From the NCBI GenBank assembly GCA_017522795.1, contig JAFWXZ010000043.1, positions 1 through 39,013 on the forward strand: a stretch of 39,013 bases of DNA, written 5' to 3'. This document shows positions 2,806 through 38,011 of this stretch, piece after piece. The stretch comes from Clostridia bacterium (GTDB lineage Bacteria > Bacillota > Clostridia > Oscillospirales > CAG-272). Under the pieces are notes generated by a model. That model saw nothing but the letters and a program-made list of their open reading frames with translations, made no database searches and had not been told where the DNA came from. Position 1 is the first letter of the stretch. Each line of letters starts with the position of its first letter. Made by a program: the position numbers and the translations under genes.

Positions 2806-3315
2806 TTAAAGAACCAGAGAGGGTGCGGAGTATACCCTCGCCGCAAGCTCCTGATTGAGCATATAGAGGCTTTTGGGATCAGAGCCGAACAGCTCCATCT
2901 TTGTGATCATATCGTTGGCGTTTGTCTCCTCCTCGCCCTGCTCCTTTACAAACCAGTCAAGGAACTGCATAGTGCGGAAGTCGTGGATCTTATACGCCTC
3001 GGCATAAATGTCGTGGATAAGACTTGTCACATACTTTTCGTGCTCAAGACCCGCCTCGAGAACTGCCATATGGCTGTCAAGCTGCTTGTCGGGCTTGTCG
3101 ATCGCTTTAAGAGTGACTACCTGATTTTCGTTCTGAAGATACTGATAGAAGAGCATCGCGTGATCGCGCTCCTCCTGCGCCTGGATCATATACCAATTTG
3201 CGAAGCCGTCAAGGCCCACGCGCTTGAAGTAGTTGGAAAAATCAAGATAAAGATACGCGCTGTAAAGCTCCTTATTTATTTGATCGTTAAGTAGCTCGTG
3301 TACTCTTTCGTTCAT
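2806..3315 (-). CDS. ftnA: Ferritin
   Basis: The 169-residue four-helix protein has the full ferroxidase-site set in FtnA order: Glu16, Glu49 and His52 (in QEERDHA), Glu93, Gln126 and Glu129. It oxidises Fe(II) and stores iron in a 24-subunit shell in the cytoplasm. No haem-ligand Met of bacterioferritin is obvious. The start has GGAG 7 bases upstream. It lies 38 bases downstream of desulfoferrodoxin with no terminator between, so both are probably transcribed from the promoter at 3779-3784, linking iron storage to superoxide removal. Confidence 0.95.
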   Translation of the reverse strand: MNERVHELLNDQINKELYSAYLYLDFSNYFKRVGLDGFANWYMIQAQEERDHAMLFYQYLQNENQVVTLKAIDKPDKQLDSHMAVLEAGLEHEKYVTSLIHDIYAEAYKIHDFRTMQFLDWFVKEQGEEETNANDMITKMELFGSDPKSLYMLNQELAARVYSAPSLVL

Positions 3316-3353: not shown

Positions 3354-3734
3354 TTATATTTCGGTCTTCCAGAGGCCGTGGAGATTGCAGTATGCATAAA
3401 CCTCAAGAGGCTTTTCATCTGCGAGGGCGAAGATAACTACAGGGGGCTCGCCAACCACAAGGTTCTTTCTCTGAACACCCTTGTCGGTTTTAAGCTCTAC
3501 CCAAAGGATAGAATGCTCCTCTGCCATAGGATGCTCTACAGAGCCAACCACTACCTTTACGGTGCTGCCCTCTACGGTTGCAACGGGAATGTGCTTCTCG
3601 CGGCTCGCCTCAACTGTGCCAGCCTCAATGGGAGTCATCTTCTGACCGCAGCATACAACGGGAACGCCCGAATCGTCGATCTTCTCGATCAGGTTTCCGC
3701 ACTTCTCACAAATATAGAATTTAGTTTTAGACAT
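3354..3734 (-). CDS. dfx: Desulfoferrodoxin (class I superoxide reductase)
   Basis: The 126-residue protein has two iron sites. The N-terminal rubredoxin-like centre I uses Cys9, Cys12, Cys28 and Cys29 (CEKC and VCCGQ). The catalytic centre II uses His48, His68, His74, Cys116 and His119 (EKHIP, EHPM, EEHS, CNLHG), with Glu46-Lys47 next to the first ligand. It reduces superoxide to hydrogen peroxide without making oxygen, a hallmark of anaerobes. The start has CGGAGG 9 bases upstream. It is the first gene of a likely dfx-ftnA operon. Its promoter has a weak -35 box and a Crp/Fnr-type palindrome in the activator position. Confidence 0.97.
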   Translation of the reverse strand: MSKTKFYICEKCGNLIEKIDDSGVPVVCCGQKMTPIEAGTVEASREKHIPVATVEGSTVKVVVGSVEHPMAEEHSILWVELKTDKGVQRKNLVVGEPPVVIFALADEKPLEVYAYCNLHGLWKTEI

Positions 3735-3778: not shown

Positions 3779-3807
3779 ATTATAGCACACTTTTTTGCAT
3801 TTGTGTG
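3779..3807 (-). promoter_or_regulatory. dfx-ftnA promoter
   Basis: TATAAT at 3784-3779. The hexamer 17 bases upstream (3807-3802) reads CACACA, a poor -35 box, so an activator is likely needed. The 15-bp palindrome at 3806-3820 overlaps this -35 position. Confidence 0.7.
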
Positions 3808-3820
3808 TGACTTTGTCACA
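3806..3820. promoter_or_regulatory. Putative Crp/Fnr-family operator upstream of dfx
   Basis: Perfect inverted repeat TGTGACTTTGTCACA. Its centre (3813) is 29 bases upstream of the -10 edge, about -41 from the predicted start, the classic class II activator position. The same arrangement recurs at trxA (5789-5803). The Crp/Fnr gene at 4685 has the recognition-helix residues expected for TGTGA half-sites. Confidence 0.7.
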
Positions 3821-3852
3821 TTTTTTTCGATTTTTTTTATTTTTTTATATTG

Positions 3853-3881
3853 TTGACATAAATAAGTTTTAGTGATATAAT
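3853..3881 (+). promoter_or_regulatory. Promoter of the MBL hydrolase-Crp/Fnr operon
   Basis: TTGACA (3853-3858), 17 bases, TGA-TATAAT (3876-3881). It is divergent from the dfx promoter and shares its operator region. The palindrome centre is about 75 bases upstream of this start, so autoregulation is possible. Confidence 0.85.
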
Positions 3882-3920
3882 TTTTTTACAGGTAAATTTA
3901 GGAGAAAACGGTTCTTTTTT

Positions 3921-4682
3921 ATGAAAATTATCTCCCTTATTGAAAACACCTCGGCAAGCGAGGATATAAAAAGCGAGCACGGACTGTCGCTGTATATTGA
4001 GGCAAACGGAAAGCAGATGCTTTTTGATATGGGGCAGACGGGCGACTTTGCCGAAAATGCCGAGCGGCTTGGCGTGGATCTTGCGAAAATCGATCTTGGG
4101 ATAATCTCCCACGGTCACTACGATCACGGCGGTGGACTTAGAAAATTCCTTAAATTAAACGACCGCGCGCCCGTCTACATAAATAAAAAAGCCACCCTTC
4201 CCTACTACAACGGCGAGCGGTACATCGGTCTTGATACAGAGCTTTTCGGCGACGGACGGCTGATATTCCTTGAGGGCGAAAAAAGAATTGGAGATGGTCT
4301 GACGCTTATAACCCTTGATGCAGAGCCAACCGATGCAGGTAATATGCGCGTGCGCTCGGGCGACCGATTCTTGCCCGACAGATTTGACCACGAGCAATAT
4401 CTGCTGATCGAGGAGGGTAGCAAGCGGGTGCTGATAAGCGGCTGCTCCCACAAGGGAATATTGCAGATTCTAAGAAGCTTTAACCCCGACGTGATGGTGG
4501 GCGGAATGCACCTGATTAATATGCCGCTCGACGAGGGGCTTACCGTTTTAGCAAAAGAGATTGGTCACCTTGGCTGTGAGATATACACCTGTCACTGCAC
4601 GGGCAAGGAGCAATTTGAATATATAAAAAAATACATTGATAGGATAGAATATCTGTCGGCAGGCGACAGAATAGAGATCTGA
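3921..4682 (+). CDS. MBL-fold metallo-hydrolase (COG1237-like)
   Basis: The 253-residue protein has the dinuclear metal motif HGHYDHGGG (His64, His66, Asp68, His69), a later GCSHKG and a C-terminal CHCTG, matching the metallo-beta-lactamase subgroup annotated as dihydropterin-ribofuranosyl-aminobenzene-phosphate synthase-like. The physiological substrate of this subgroup in Clostridia is unknown. It is expected to be cytoplasmic because no signal peptide is present. The start has AGGAG (AATTTAGGAGAAAACGG) upstream. It is followed after two bases by the Crp/Fnr gene, so the two are cotranscribed. The pairing suggests it makes or removes a signal for, or is governed by, that regulator. Confidence 0.85.
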   Translation: MKIISLIENTSASEDIKSEHGLSLYIEANGKQMLFDMGQTGDFAENAERLGVDLAKIDLGIISHGHYDHGGGLRKFLKLNDRAPVYINKKATLPYYNGERYIGLDTELFGDGRLIFLEGEKRIGDGLTLITLDAEPTDAGNMRVRSGDRFLPDRFDHEQYLLIEEGSKRVLISGCSHKGILQILRSFNPDVMVGGMHLINMPLDEGLTVLAKEIGHLGCEIYTCHCTGKEQFEYIKKYIDRIEYLSAGDRIEI

Positions 4683-4684
4683 AA

Positions 4685-5362
4685 ATGAACGAAAATCAGC
4701 TTACACAATTATTTGAAACCGCATTTCCCTTTTGGGAGGGACTAAGCAAGTGGGATAAGGAAACCTTCCTACACTCCTCATACGAGGTCAATTTCCGCGC
4801 GGGCGCAAACGTCCACGACGGCGGTGAATGCACCGGCGTTATACTTGTAAAATCCGGCTCACTGCGCCTTTACCTGCTCTCCGACGAGGGCAAGGAGGTG
4901 ACGCTCTACCGTCTGTTCCCCGGGGATATGTGCATACTCTCGGCGTCCTGTGTGCTTAACAGTCTGACCTTTGACGTGCTTATCGACGCAGAGGAGGACA
5001 GCGAGTGCGTAGTAGTTGGCGGCTGCGCCTACGAGGGTGTGTGGCAGAGATCGGATGCGGTAAAGATATTTACCTACGAGACCGCCCTATCCCGCTTCTC
5101 CGACATAATGTGGGTAATGCAGCAGATACTCTTTATGAGTATGGACAAGCGCCTTGCCATTTTCCTGCTTGACGAGGTGGCAAAAAACGGCGGCGATACG
5201 GTAAAGCTTACCCACGAGCAGATAGCAAAATATATGGGCTCTGCCCGCGAGGTGGTGTCAAGAATGTTAAAATACTTCGCCTCCGAGGGACTCGTAACCG
5301 CCTCAAGAAGCGAGGGTATCAGAATCATTGACAAAAAGAGGCTGAGAAAGATAGCCACATAA
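4685..5362 (+). CDS. Crp/Fnr-family transcriptional regulator
   Basis: The 225-residue protein has an N-terminal cyclic-nucleotide-binding-type beta barrel (about residues 20-120: SGSLRLYLLSDEGKEVTLYRLFPGD) and a C-terminal winged helix (LTHEQIAKYMGSAREVVSRML). The recognition helix AREVVSR keeps the Arg-Glu-x-x-x-Arg spacing with which CRP reads TGTGA. The N-terminal cysteine cluster of FNR is absent, but five other cysteines occur (about 49, 83, 88, 108 and 113), so a thiol or haem sensor is possible. It starts two bases after the MBL hydrolase stop. TGTGA palindromes lie on both sides, upstream of dfx and trxA, making those genes its likely targets. The signal is unknown. Confidence 0.9.
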   Translation: MNENQLTQLFETAFPFWEGLSKWDKETFLHSSYEVNFRAGANVHDGGECTGVILVKSGSLRLYLLSDEGKEVTLYRLFPGDMCILSASCVLNSLTFDVLIDAEEDSECVVVGGCAYEGVWQRSDAVKIFTYETALSRFSDIMWVMQQILFMSMDKRLAIFLLDEVAKNGGDTVKLTHEQIAKYMGSAREVVSRMLKYFASEGLVTASRSEGIRIIDKKRLRKIAT

Positions 5363-5385
5363 CCGCGAGGTAATAAAACGTCCAA

Positions 5386-5418
5386 TAAAAAAGAGGCTCT
5401 GTTTAAGAGCCTTTTTTC
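5386..5418. terminator. Bidirectional terminator between crp/fnr and trxA
   Basis: Stem GGCTCT/AGAGCC extended by A/T pairs, with T-runs in both directions, between two convergent genes. Confidence 0.85.
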
Positions 5419-5420
5419 TA

Positions 5421-5729
5421 TTATACTGAAACAAGTTCCAGTATCTGTCCCTTGCTTCTCGCGCCGCTGACCTGCTTTACTACCTCGCCGTTCTTCATAA
5501 CAACGAGCGTGGGGATAGAGTATACCTTAAACTCCTTTGCAAGAGCGGGGTTATCGTCCACGTTTACCTTTGCGACCAGAAGATCTGCCCTCTCGGACGC
5601 GATCTCCTCCACTATGGGAAGCACCATACGGCAGGGGCCGCACCAATCTGCGTAAAAGTCGATAAGCGAAATACCCTCGTGGGATCTTACCTCGTTAAAA
5701 TTGCTTTCATTTATTATCTTTGCACTCAT
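5421..5729 (-). CDS. trxA: Thioredoxin
   Basis: The 102-residue single-domain protein has the WCGPC redox site (Cys30, Cys33) and the cis-proline in YSIPT (Pro73). It reduces protein disulfides in the cytoplasm with electrons from thioredoxin reductase, which is not in the window. The start has GGAG 7 bases upstream (AAGGAGAAACGCAAATG). The gene is monocistronic, between the bidirectional terminator and its own promoter, whose only strong element is the -10 box plus a Crp/Fnr-type palindrome. Confidence 0.96.
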   Translation of the reverse strand: MSAKIINESNFNEVRSHEGISLIDFYADWCGPCRMVLPIVEEIASERADLLVAKVNVDDNPALAKEFKVYSIPTLVVMKNGEVVKQVSGARSKGQILELVSV

Positions 5730-5761
5730 TTGCGTTTCTCCTTCGTTTGTTTTGTGAGTTT

Positions 5762-5790
5762 ATTATAGCAGAGAAACCGAAATACTTCTG
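5762..5790 (-). promoter_or_regulatory. trxA promoter
   Basis: TATAAT at 5767-5762. The hexamer 17 bases upstream (5790-5785) reads CAGAAG, a poor -35 box, as at dfx. Confidence 0.65.
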
Positions 5791-5803
5791 TGACAAAATC
5801 ACA
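5789..5803. promoter_or_regulatory. Putative Crp/Fnr-family operator upstream of trxA
   Basis: TGTGACAAAATCACA, a TGTGA-N5-TCACA palindrome whose centre (5796) is 29 bases upstream of the -10 edge, exactly as at dfx. Confidence 0.7.
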
Positions 5804-5836
5804 AAAGAAAAAGCGGCTCGGGTGAGCCGCTTTTAA
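5804..5836 (-). terminator. Terminator of the pectate lyase gene
   Basis: Stem AAGCGGCTC/GAGCCGCTT followed on the minus strand by TTTCTTTT. It lies between the pectate lyase stop and the trxA operator. Confidence 0.85.
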
Positions 5837-5839
5837 AAT

Positions 5840-8215
5840 TTAATCCTCAATGCCGAAAAGCCACTTGAAGAAATCTACTATAGCTTTCCAGATCCTCTCG
5901 AAGAAGCCAAGCTCCTCCTCGGGCTCATCGTCCTCGGGGTTCTCGGGGTCGGGTATGGGTTCCGGATCGGGTTTGGGATCAGGATCGGGCGCGGGATCTA
6001 CGGTGGGATCATCCTCGGGGATATAATCGGGATCGTCGATGCCGCAGTTCACGCAGAAGCCGTCGGAGAAATCGTGGCCGCTCGCCTCTACCGTCTCGGT
6101 ATAGCTGTCGCCGCAGGAGCAGATATAGGTATCAAGACCCGCCTCGGTACAGGTGGCAGGCTTGGTCTGCTGCCTTTCATAGCTGTGGGTATGAACCGCA
6201 TTCGGAAGGAAGGACATATAGAACAGATTTATAGAATCGTCCTTTGTGACGGTGTGTCTGCCCTCGGCAACCTCGATGGTGACCGTCTGATCTGCGCCGA
6301 TGTCATAGGACTTGCCGTCAAGCTTTATCTGCTTTCCCGCCGCGGAGGTGGTTCCGCCAAAGACGAGAATAAGCTTACCCGCCTCGGAGGCAAAGCCGAT
6401 CTGCGTCTTGCTCTCTATTTTGAGACATACGGTGAGTGTCTCGCCGTTAAGAGTGACACTTCCCTTTGAGTCGGAGGTATTACAGTCCGTAAAGCTGAAG
6501 AAGCCCTCGGGATCCACCTTGCCGTCTGCGGTAAAGCTGTGGGACTGATTTCCCGCGGGAACGATAACCTCGGGAGTGCTGCCCGAACCGCCTGTGCCGC
6601 TGCCTGTGCCGCTACCGCTGTTTCCGCCTGCGCTATCGTCGGGAGTATAGCTCTCGTGCCCTCTGTGACCTGCATCCCTTGAAACCACCGCCTTCATCTC
6701 GGCGATGCTCTCCTGAATAATATATTCACCCGTCGGAATATAGCTTACTGTGGAGTCAAGCTCAAAGCTTGCGTATCTGTTAGCTGATGAGACCACGGTG
6801 CTTCTGTCACTTACGATAGTCGCGTCGTTATCCTTTGTGCAATTCACGAAGGAGTCGCCGTAGCTCTTTACCGCGCCGGACTTGATGGTGACGGGGTTCT
6901 TGGAATTAAGGAACAGGTTGTACTCCGAGAAGATATATCCGTTTTCTCTCGGGTTCATACAGTAGGAGGTCTGTCCCTCAAAGATATTGTTGTACATATG
7001 AATGTTTGCCTGGCGGGCAAGAGGTCCGCGGGACTCGCAGTTTCTCCAGTAATTATGATGATATGTAATATGGAACTGCAGATTGGAGTCGGATGCGCCA
7101 AGCAGATTCGTCTTATGATAGCCGCTATAGAGGCAATAGGAGTTGGTGAAATACTGTCCGCGCTTGAAGTCGCAGGCGCCGTCACCGCCATCCTTATCAC
7201 TCTCGGCGGGATTTGCGATCTTGGGGGCGTAGAAGGAGCAATGATGTATCCAGCAGCGCTCAACGGGAGCGGTAAGATTGCTTCCCGACTGTACGCCCTC
7301 CATACCTACGCAGTCCTCGGGCACGTTTCTGAAGGCGATGTTTCTGACCTCAAAGCTTCTGCCGAAGCCGCGGGAGTAATCGGAGGTCTGACACATGAAG
7401 TGAAGTCCCCAGCCGTCAATGGTAGCGTCATAGCCAACACCCTCGATGGTGACGTCCTTGCCGCCCTGCATGCGCGCCATAAAGCCGTTGTCGCCCTCGC
7501 TGCCGCCGTAGTCCTTCGAGTCAAAGGCGGTAAGTCCCTCGGGGGCGGTCACTCTGCCGATAATACGAACCACGAGAGGCGTGCCGTCCTCGGCAAGCTT
7601 ACGAATTATATCCGAGTTTGTGTTGGCAATTCCGCCTGCCGCGGTCTTGCCGCCGCCTGCGCTCTTACCAACCGAGTTGAGAATATTTCCAATACCGACA
7701 ACAGTCGTTCCGTCCTTCGATGTGACAGACACGGTGTTCTTGTTTTCCTCGGTGACGTAGAGGACTATGGCATTGTCCTTCAGCGTTCCGTCATCCTTAT
7801 ACGCGCCGACGCCCTCGGTGTAATTAAAGTGAGCATAGCCCGAGCGGTCGTAGGGGAGAACGGTGACACTCTCGCTTGTCAGGGCGGTCTGCTCTGCTCC
7901 GCCGGCGATAGAAACTATCTTAAAGAGGTATTTTCCCGCGCCAAGACCTACCGCATCCGCGCGGTATCCGCCCTCGGTCCTGCGAACGAGAGCATCGTCA
8001 AGCAGAGTCCAGCTGTCCGAGCCGTCCTTTGCGATATATACCTTATATCCATCAGCGTCCGCGGTGGCTGTCCACTCAACCGAAGCCGACTCGAACCACC
8101 CCTCCGTCTTTGTAATTCCTCCCTCAGCGGCAAGGCTGCCTACCGCCATTACCGAAATCATAGAGGCAAATATAGAAAGAGATAAAATTATACTGATTAT
8201 TCTACGGATTGTCAT
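5840..8215 (-). CDS. Secreted multidomain polysaccharide lyase family 1 pectate lyase
   Basis: The 791-residue exported protein starts with a signal peptide (MTIRRIISIILSLS..., likely cut after about residue 30). A fibronectin-III-like domain follows (about 36-120), then a PL1 right-handed beta-helix (about 130-480) with CWIHHCSF, YHKTNLLGASDS, ITYHHNYWRNCESRGPLAR and HMYNNIFEG, the conserved pectate-lyase segments including the catalytic Arg region. Next are a Gly/Ser linker, a beta-rich accessory domain (about 560-670), a His/Cys module (675-725), an acidic Pro-rich linker and a 20-residue amphipathic helix at the C-terminus. It would cleave polygalacturonate outside the cell. There is no LPxTG or dockerin. 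The start has GGAGG 7 bases upstream. Confidence 0.88.
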   Translation of the reverse strand: MTIRRIISIILSLSIFASMISVMAVGSLAAEGGITKTEGWFESASVEWTATADADGYKVYIAKDGSDSWTLLDDALVRRTEGGYRADAVGLGAGKYLFKIVSIAGGAEQTALTSESVTVLPYDRSGYAHFNYTEGVGAYKDDGTLKDNAIVLYVTEENKNTVSVTSKDGTTVVGIGNILNSVGKSAGGGKTAAGGIANTNSDIIRKLAEDGTPLVVRIIGRVTAPEGLTAFDSKDYGGSEGDNGFMARMQGGKDVTIEGVGYDATIDGWGLHFMCQTSDYSRGFGRSFEVRNIAFRNVPEDCVGMEGVQSGSNLTAPVERCWIHHCSFYAPKIANPAESDKDGGDGACDFKRGQYFTNSYCLYSGYHKTNLLGASDSNLQFHITYHHNYWRNCESRGPLARQANIHMYNNIFEGQTSYCMNPRENGYIFSEYNLFLNSKNPVTIKSGAVKSYGDSFVNCTKDNDATIVSDRSTVVSSANRYASFELDSTVSYIPTGEYIIQESIAEMKAVVSRDAGHRGHESYTPDDSAGGNSGSGTGSGTGGSGSTPEVIVPAGNQSHSFTADGKVDPEGFFSFTDCNTSDSKGSVTLNGETLTVCLKIESKTQIGFASEAGKLILVFGGTTSAAGKQIKLDGKSYDIGADQTVTIEVAEGRHTVTKDDSINLFYMSFLPNAVHTHSYERQQTKPATCTEAGLDTYICSCGDSYTETVEASGHDFSDGFCVNCGIDDPDYIPEDDPTVDPAPDPDPKPDPEPIPDPENPEDDEPEEELGFFERIWKAIVDFFKWLFGIED

Positions 8216-37970: not shown

Positions 37971-38011
37971 TATTAAAGCCCTCCGCTTTTATTTTTTTAA
38001 ATAACATTGTT

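Follow-up and report, generated by a model that had tools for sequence, protein, structure and literature searches.

A 39,013-nt stretch from a Clostridia bacterium (contig JAFWXZ010000043.1; hereafter the window) carries the gene of a Crp/Fnr regulator (4685–5362) set between two odd-spaced palindromic operators, and from sequence comparison we consider this protein very probably a class II activator of oxygen- and thiol-defence genes. The conservation of the operators, their promoter geometry, their half-site spacing and their co-occurrence with the regulator are direct observations. A previous sequence-only reading of this DNA had described twin Crp/Fnr operators of spacing 5 in class II position and a small oxidative-stress regulon; that reading is largely right, and our analysis both supports and extends it. 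The elements concerned are these:

Operator 1, TGTGACTTTGTCACA, 3806–3820: TGTGA-N5-TCACA with 0 mismatches, centre 3813.
Operator 2, TGTGACAAAATCACA, 5789–5803: TGTGA-N5-TCACA with 0 mismatches, centre 5796.
3784–3779, minus strand: −10 box TATAAT of the dfx-ftnA promoter, no −35 box.
5767–5762, minus strand: −10 box TATAAT of the trxA promoter, no −35 box.
3354–3734, minus strand: dfx, desulfoferrodoxin/superoxide reductase (Pfam PF01880, 5.9e-20; PF06397, 2.7e-6).
2806–3315, minus strand: ftnA, ferritin (Pfam PF00210, 1.1e-34).
5421–5729, minus strand: trxA, thioredoxin (TIGR01068, 107 bits, above the cut-off of 96.8).
4685–5362, plus strand: Crp/Fnr regulator (PF13545, 1.4e-16; PF00325, 3.6e-9; match to the solved structure 3dv8, E = 1.7e-61).

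Both palindromes are exact and, as had been claimed, centred 29 nt upstream of a −10 box, operator 1 with respect to dfx and operator 2 with respect to trxA. At a distance of 17 bp upstream, these −10 boxes are preceded by CACACA (dfx-ftnA) and CAGAAG (trxA), neither of them a −35 box, which bears out the poor −35 boxes described earlier. With transcription starts inferred from the −10 boxes, on which the −41 positions rest, both operators would be centred near −41, the class II position that the sequence-only reading had assigned to them; E. coli CRP and FNR likewise occupy operators centred near −41 at class II promoters that have no good −35 box. Allowing at most one mismatch, TGTGA-N5-TCACA matches the window three times (the third, with one mismatch, at 38008), against a mean of 0.51 matches in shuffled windows, of which 1 in 100 reached three. 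The full class II pattern, GTGAYNNNRTCAC-N22-TANNNT, matches the dfx-ftnA and trxA promoters and nothing else in the window, with a mean of 0.003 matches in first-order resampled windows and two matches in 0 of 300 draws.

The regulator is a member of the Crp/Fnr family by sequence (PF13545, 60.6 bits; PF00325, 36.6 bits; PF00027, 28.6 bits; all above cut-off) and by fold (predicted structure with pLDDT 86.6 and pTM 0.60). Its best solved relative on both measures is 3dv8 (Foldseek E = 3.7e-25, 46% identity), the putative Crp/Fnr regulator EUBREC_1222 of Eubacterium rectale. The recognition helix AREVVSR occupies residues 187–193, and the Arg-Glu-x-x-x-Arg previously read in it (R188, E189, R193) is kept at each residue in 81 of 81 aligned sequences; in E. 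coli, a helix of this R-E-x-x-x-R type reads TGTGA. A cysteine triad is also kept (C49 in 81 of 81 sequences, C83 in 80 and C89 in 81), with EUBREC_1222 having cysteines at the aligned places, and C108 is present in 80 of the 81 while missing from some more distant relatives. No FNR-type N-terminal 4Fe-4S cysteine cluster exists in the protein, whose first cysteine is residue 49, so that this earlier claim stands as well, and the NCBIfam scores fall short for both FNR proper (20 bits, cut-off 228) and the CRP equivalog (35.7 bits, cut-off 266). We propose a 3dv8-type subfamily marked by the C49/C83/C89 triad, an AREVVSR-like helix and a nearby trxA; the regulator has the triad and the helix, and trxA is nearby in 66 of 80 related loci. 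The genome that the window comes from (1.65 Mb, 78% complete; hereafter the source genome, G000) contains four other HTH_Crp_2 matches, comprising one Crp/Fnr protein whose helix differs (GRASVYR), two proteins of LexA and MarR type, and one match below cut-off.

Related loci were taken as the 80 best of at least 566 relatives of the regulator in named genome records, whose titles give Clostridia, Oscillospiraceae, Lachnospiraceae and similar groups and which are mostly metagenome-assembled genomes, many of them from gut samples; some contigs are shared between these records and a set of 99 genomes (labelled G) analysed below. The sequence-only reading was to fall if the palindromes proved unconserved in orthologous promoters, and this is not so: TGTGA-N5-TCACA with at most one mismatch is found in 71 of the 80 loci, with 40 exact matches. 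Spacings of 2–4 and 6–11 each give zero or one exact match, and matches with at most one mismatch in 6–21 loci, while reversed half-sites give no exact match. The N6 operator expected of CRP proper accounts for one exact match against 40 for N5, in agreement with the earlier claim of a spacing of 5 rather than 6; in CRP and FNR sites the spacer is even, N6 or N4. The distance to the −10 box is similarly fixed. Within the fetched stretches trxA is found in 66 loci, a site lies upstream of it in 53 of these, and 51 of the 53 have TAnnnT at exactly 29 nt from the operator centre, no other offset being shared by more than 15. The same +29 offset holds in nine of ten dfx/ftn promoters, the window's included, and the tenth (L136) has TATAAT at +28; this count was seven by our first script rule and eight by TAnnnT at +29, with L145 (TATTCT at +29) added. 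Aligned, the promoters read TGTGAC-N3-GTCACRGAA followed by TATAAT or TATACT.

The pattern also tracks the regulator between genomes. Control loci (30 trxA-like and 21 dfx loci, from 30 genomes with no regulator relative or with weak Crp-type matches only) yielded just one one-mismatch word in each group, that of the trxA group lying inside a trxA match. Among the 99 genomes, the regulator is present in 40 (E ≤ 1e-40) and absent from 58 (E > 1e-10), one genome with an intermediate match being left out. The class II pattern occurs in 36 of the 40 regulator-bearing genomes (86 matches) compared with 8 of the 58 without the regulator (9 matches), and the reversed pattern matches once in all 99. 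An N6 pattern with two offsets allowed gives 31 matches by hand count, 10 in the 40 regulator-bearing genomes and 21 in the other 59; this lack of a genome-wide link to the regulator, together with the spacing counts in the 80 loci, rules out N6 as the general operator. N6 palindromes were seen near a divergent regulator gene at G029:C14:38336 and 38479 and at G068:C1:1446177, and operator spacing may vary between subfamilies. Bare TGTGA-N5-TCACA averages 2.6 copies per genome with the regulator and 0.6 without, a weak measure because a repeat in G027 inflates bare counts, and the promoter pattern was used instead.

Several results weigh against our interpretation. Part of the 71 of 80 loci rests on chance-like one-mismatch words, nine loci are without any site, and 13 of the 66 loci with a nearby trxA have no site with at most one mismatch upstream of it. 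The word found in the dfx controls, TGAGAGCCTTTCACA, lies about 90–100 nt upstream of dfx in G041, and the control trxA genes, at most 58% identical to that of the window, may not be strict orthologues (control dfx genes are up to 70% identical to the window's). The genome counts give a Fisher p of 1.2e-14, which overstates independence because the genomes share ancestry, and two palindromes (in G016 and G019) were counted in both directions. Four regulator-bearing genomes, G027, G068, G069 and G074, lack the class II pattern. The G027 palindrome, TGTGACTTCGTCACA, sits in a many-copy dispersed repeat without the promoter pattern (e.g. L335–L341); this genome has 23 exact N5 sites, the seven compared all lying in the shared repeat, and 0 class II matches, and its regulator is more distant (44% identity). 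Of the four exact N5 palindromes in the source genome, two are those of the window and a third precedes a dGTPase-type gene; the fourth, TGTGACACTCTCACA at C36:62840 (L001:1501–1515), is without promoter geometry. By eye, it lies downstream of a gene resembling polynucleotide phosphorylase. Palindromes without promoter geometry are found in L111, L123 and L082 as well.

Five class II promoters were identified in the source genome, those of dfx-ftnA, trxA, trxB (thioredoxin reductase; TIGR01292 above cut-off), a rubredoxin (PF00301, 8e-22) beside a flavodiiron-type gene (PF19583), and grcA (glycyl-radical repair protein GrcA3; NF038360 above cut-off). All five targets fit oxygen or thiol defence, as these families serve in superoxide removal, iron storage, disulfide reduction, supply of electrons to reductases of O2 and reactive oxygen species, and repair of O2-cleaved pyruvate formate-lyase. 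The regulon had been called small, which understates it by three promoters in this genome alone (rubredoxin, trxB and grcA). Class II targets in relatives comprise thioredoxin, ferritin, rubrerythrin, a flavodiiron-flavin reductase-rubredoxin fusion and flavin reductase-rubredoxin; ferredoxin-thioredoxin-reductase-like and DsbD/CcdA-type proteins, a Bcp-like peroxiredoxin and redoxin lipoproteins; and rhodaneses, pyruvate formate-lyase and one Fur-family regulator. A tally of 54 proteins with overlapping categories, which leans toward good sites because the stretches were partly hand-picked, contains 16 thioredoxin, 9 AhpC/TSA, 6 ferritin, 4 rubredoxin, 4 DsbD and 4 rhodanese members; it also holds two proteins without a Pfam family (L309, L321), a short-chain dehydrogenase (L315) and a 2-hydroxyacid dehydrogenase (L317).

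The sample behind this tally consisted of 60 fetched stretches, 20 chosen from bare palindromes and 40 from class II matches in regulator-bearing genomes, class II matches within the regulator loci having mostly been viewed in a separate survey. From the resulting 58 rows we removed L319 (no gene), L325 (no clear gene), L117 (miscalled; another reading frame looks like rubredoxin) and a second row for L048. Seven chance-looking class II matches (G052:C52, G046:C26, G029:C44, G092:C55, G040:C44, G040:C51 and G093:C18) and another next to a regulator fragment (G039:C17) were not fetched. Individual arrangements seen in relatives include an operator with one changed base before a ferredoxin-thioredoxin-reductase-like gene followed by trxA (L115), and a single palindrome between divergent trxA and flavodiiron-flavin reductase-rubredoxin fusion genes with TATAAT at +29 on both sides (L297; G019:C34:69565–69633). 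The L298 stretch (G035:C72) has separate N5 class II promoters for a Fur-family gene and for trxA, and in some genomes the regulator may thus control a PerR-like regulator.

In a second type of promoter a −35-like box is retained, and the site lies upstream of that box, 48 or 41 nt from the −10 box. At HD/dGTPase-type genes in three genomes (L004:1501–1515, equivalent to G000:C57:22354 in the source genome; L120; L121) the palindrome lies exactly 48 nt from the −10 box with a −35 box present, and these are likely class I sites. In a further three genomes (L112, L113, L118) it lies 41 nt from the −10 box, with TTGATT as the −35 box, making a third fixed geometry; two of the genes served are rubrerythrins by Pfam and the third is a look-alike gene of 177 aa.

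The regulator gene itself is the second of an operon, which begins with the following elements:

3853–3881, plus strand: consensus promoter TTGACA-N17-TATAAT of the MBL-regulator operon, identified by sequence.
3921–4682, plus strand: MBL-fold metallo-hydrolase (Pfam PF00753, 3.6e-11), first gene of the operon.

The regulator gene starts 2 nt past the MBL gene, and both stand under the operon's own consensus promoter. Cotranscription with an MBL-fold enzyme, as described earlier, fits the window but is not a general trait: 4 of the 80 related loci have such an enzyme close to the regulator, which rules it out as a fixed partner. Activation of its own operon by the regulator is not needed, as that consensus promoter is present 40 bp from operator 1, and we rejected autoregulation of this kind as a requirement. 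The dfx product scores 115 bits against TIGR00320, under the cut-off of 146.9. Adjoining operator 2 is a G+C-rich hairpin (AAAAGCGGCTC/GAGCCGCTTTT) at 5809–5834, which is probably the terminator of a 791-aa gene at 5840–8215.

In the mechanism we propose, a dimer of the 4685–5362 protein would bind the 15-bp palindrome TGTGAY-NNN-RTCACR, usually followed by GAA, and from an operator centre near −41 would recruit RNA polymerase in class II fashion to promoters with a −10 box and no usable −35 box. Its targets in the source genome would be dfx-ftnA, trxA, trxB, rubredoxin and grcA, perhaps joined by the dGTPase-type gene with a site near −60. We infer binding by this protein, activation at −41 and oxidation as the signal. 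That the palindromes arose by chance, or belong to terminator hairpins or repeats, is barely credible: bare palindromes without promoter geometry do exist, operator 2 adjoins a terminator-like hairpin, and in G027 the repeat reading holds, but spacing, offset and co-occurrence refute such readings for the class II promoters taken together, to which G027 contributes nothing, although single matches may still be due to chance. A more substantial objection is that another protein, whether a second Crp/Fnr protein or a different helix-turn-helix dimer, binds the sites and the neighbouring regulator is a bystander, since the source genome does encode one more Crp/Fnr protein, and regulator and sites could have been inherited jointly. 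We find this very improbable, given that the sites follow the regulator over 98 genomes, promoters on other contigs included, that the other Crp/Fnr protein lacks an R-E-x-x-x-R helix, and that R188, E189 and R193 are invariant in 81 sequences. Also improbable is a repressor that blocks polymerase at −41 until oxidation frees it, by PerR-like logic. The site overlaps the −35 region, and PerR represses an overlapping gene set in Clostridium acetobutylicum, according to the available part of PMC3828012. Against repression, the window promoters look activator-dependent because they have no −35 box, the near-invariant +29 offset (51/53) is as expected for contact with polymerase, and the HD/dGTPase-type and rubrerythrin promoters place the site upstream of a −35-like box, 48 or 41 nt from the −10 box.

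The nature of the signal is less settled than the regulon. The sensor could be a thiol switch on C49, C83 and C89 that is reset by thioredoxin, its own target; we put this at a little short of an even chance, preferring it because the cysteines are conserved and trxA is so common a target. What speaks for it is that conservation, and the presence of cysteines in the same region of CooA weighs against it. An activator with the same regulon that senses heme (as in CooA or PgRsp) or another ligand, its cysteines being ligands or structural residues, is the main alternative, though an unlikely one. By sequence, CooA (1ft9, E = 1e-8) ranks second among the solved relatives, and the segment GDMFCMHSGC aligns without gaps with GDMCILSASC of CooA, C89 standing opposite the second CooA cysteine and C83 one residue before the first. 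In that alignment, however, Ser86 faces the position of the CooA heme-ligand histidine, His77; this CO/heme sensor has cysteines in the same segment as our regulator, and its histidine ligand is missing here. PgRsp belongs to Porphyromonas gingivalis, a member of a different phylum. It is a Crp/Fnr protein of redox stress that was modelled on 3dv8 and is heme-bound, as reported in the accessible portion of PMC6955866, a result that also counts against the thiol switch; that portion describes no operator of the N5 kind for PgRsp. The one paper we found to name EUBREC_1222/3dv8 employs it as this modelling template (PMC6955866). Favouring the thiol switch over heme, it is cysteines that are conserved among the reactive residues of the sensor segment, and the site very commonly serves thioredoxin.

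PerR is a Fur-family protein, and no Fur/PerR-family gene was found in the source genome at its 78% completeness; Fur was also not found in the regulator-bearing relatives G004, G012, G013, G019, G022, G039 and G052. In the genus, 8 of the 27 genomes that carry the regulator lack Fur, as does 1 of the 33 that do not carry it (p = 0.008); the contrast weakens when all 98 genomes are taken (9/40 versus 5/58, p = 0.08), genome incompleteness adding noise. Relative to E. coli CRP and FNR, the system shares the class II position and the helix type and differs in its N5 spacer, in having neither the N-terminal cysteines of FNR nor a CRP equivalog score, and in its 15-bp operator, one base shorter than CRP/FNR sites. 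The targets overlap those of PerR in C. acetobutylicum, given in the part of PMC3828012 available as reverse rubrerythrins, dfx, rubredoxin and flavodiiron-type proteins; there the regulator is a repressor, whereas here a Crp/Fnr rather than a Fur-family protein would act from an activator position and trxA, trxB and grcA are added. C. difficile uses PerR, OseR and sigma-B, as stated in the accessible text of PMC11980386. HcpR, a Crp/Fnr regulator of anaerobes, shares the TGTGA half-site, with the Desulfovibrio consensus wTGTGAnnnnnnTCACAw (PMC1274295) and even spacing in the sites given in the available parts of PMC1274295 and PMC545781; its spacer is 6 or another even variant and its core target hcp, in contrast to the spacer of 5 and the other targets here. 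The present regulator is not an HcpR by spacing, and none of the targets examined is named hcp, although hcp itself was not searched for. A CooA site in Desulfovibrio is given as TGTCGGCnnGCCGACA in the accessible part of PMC545781. A paper on C. thermocellum binding sites (PMC8457756) contains none of the terms sought. Our searches of open-licence papers gave no description of the N5 TGTGA operator or of this regulon, and no paper with the exact motif strings.

To our knowledge, oxygen sensing and survival are little understood in strict gut anaerobes that lack PerR. Our analysis puts forward a candidate regulator, a precise rule for its operator (15 bp, with the centre 29 nt from the −10 box) and a target list, with rule and targets readable from sequence in many uncultured Clostridia, and it raises the structural question of how a Crp/Fnr dimer sits on half-sites one base closer together. 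More tentatively, and with some doubt, we suggest that many gut Clostridia, most of them uncultured, may have as a main O2/thiol regulator, in place of PerR, a Crp/Fnr activator that senses through a cysteine triad and has an N5 dimer geometry unlike known CRP/FNR sites, which would be reset by the thioredoxin it induces and which may have fully replaced Fur/PerR in several lineages, this one included.

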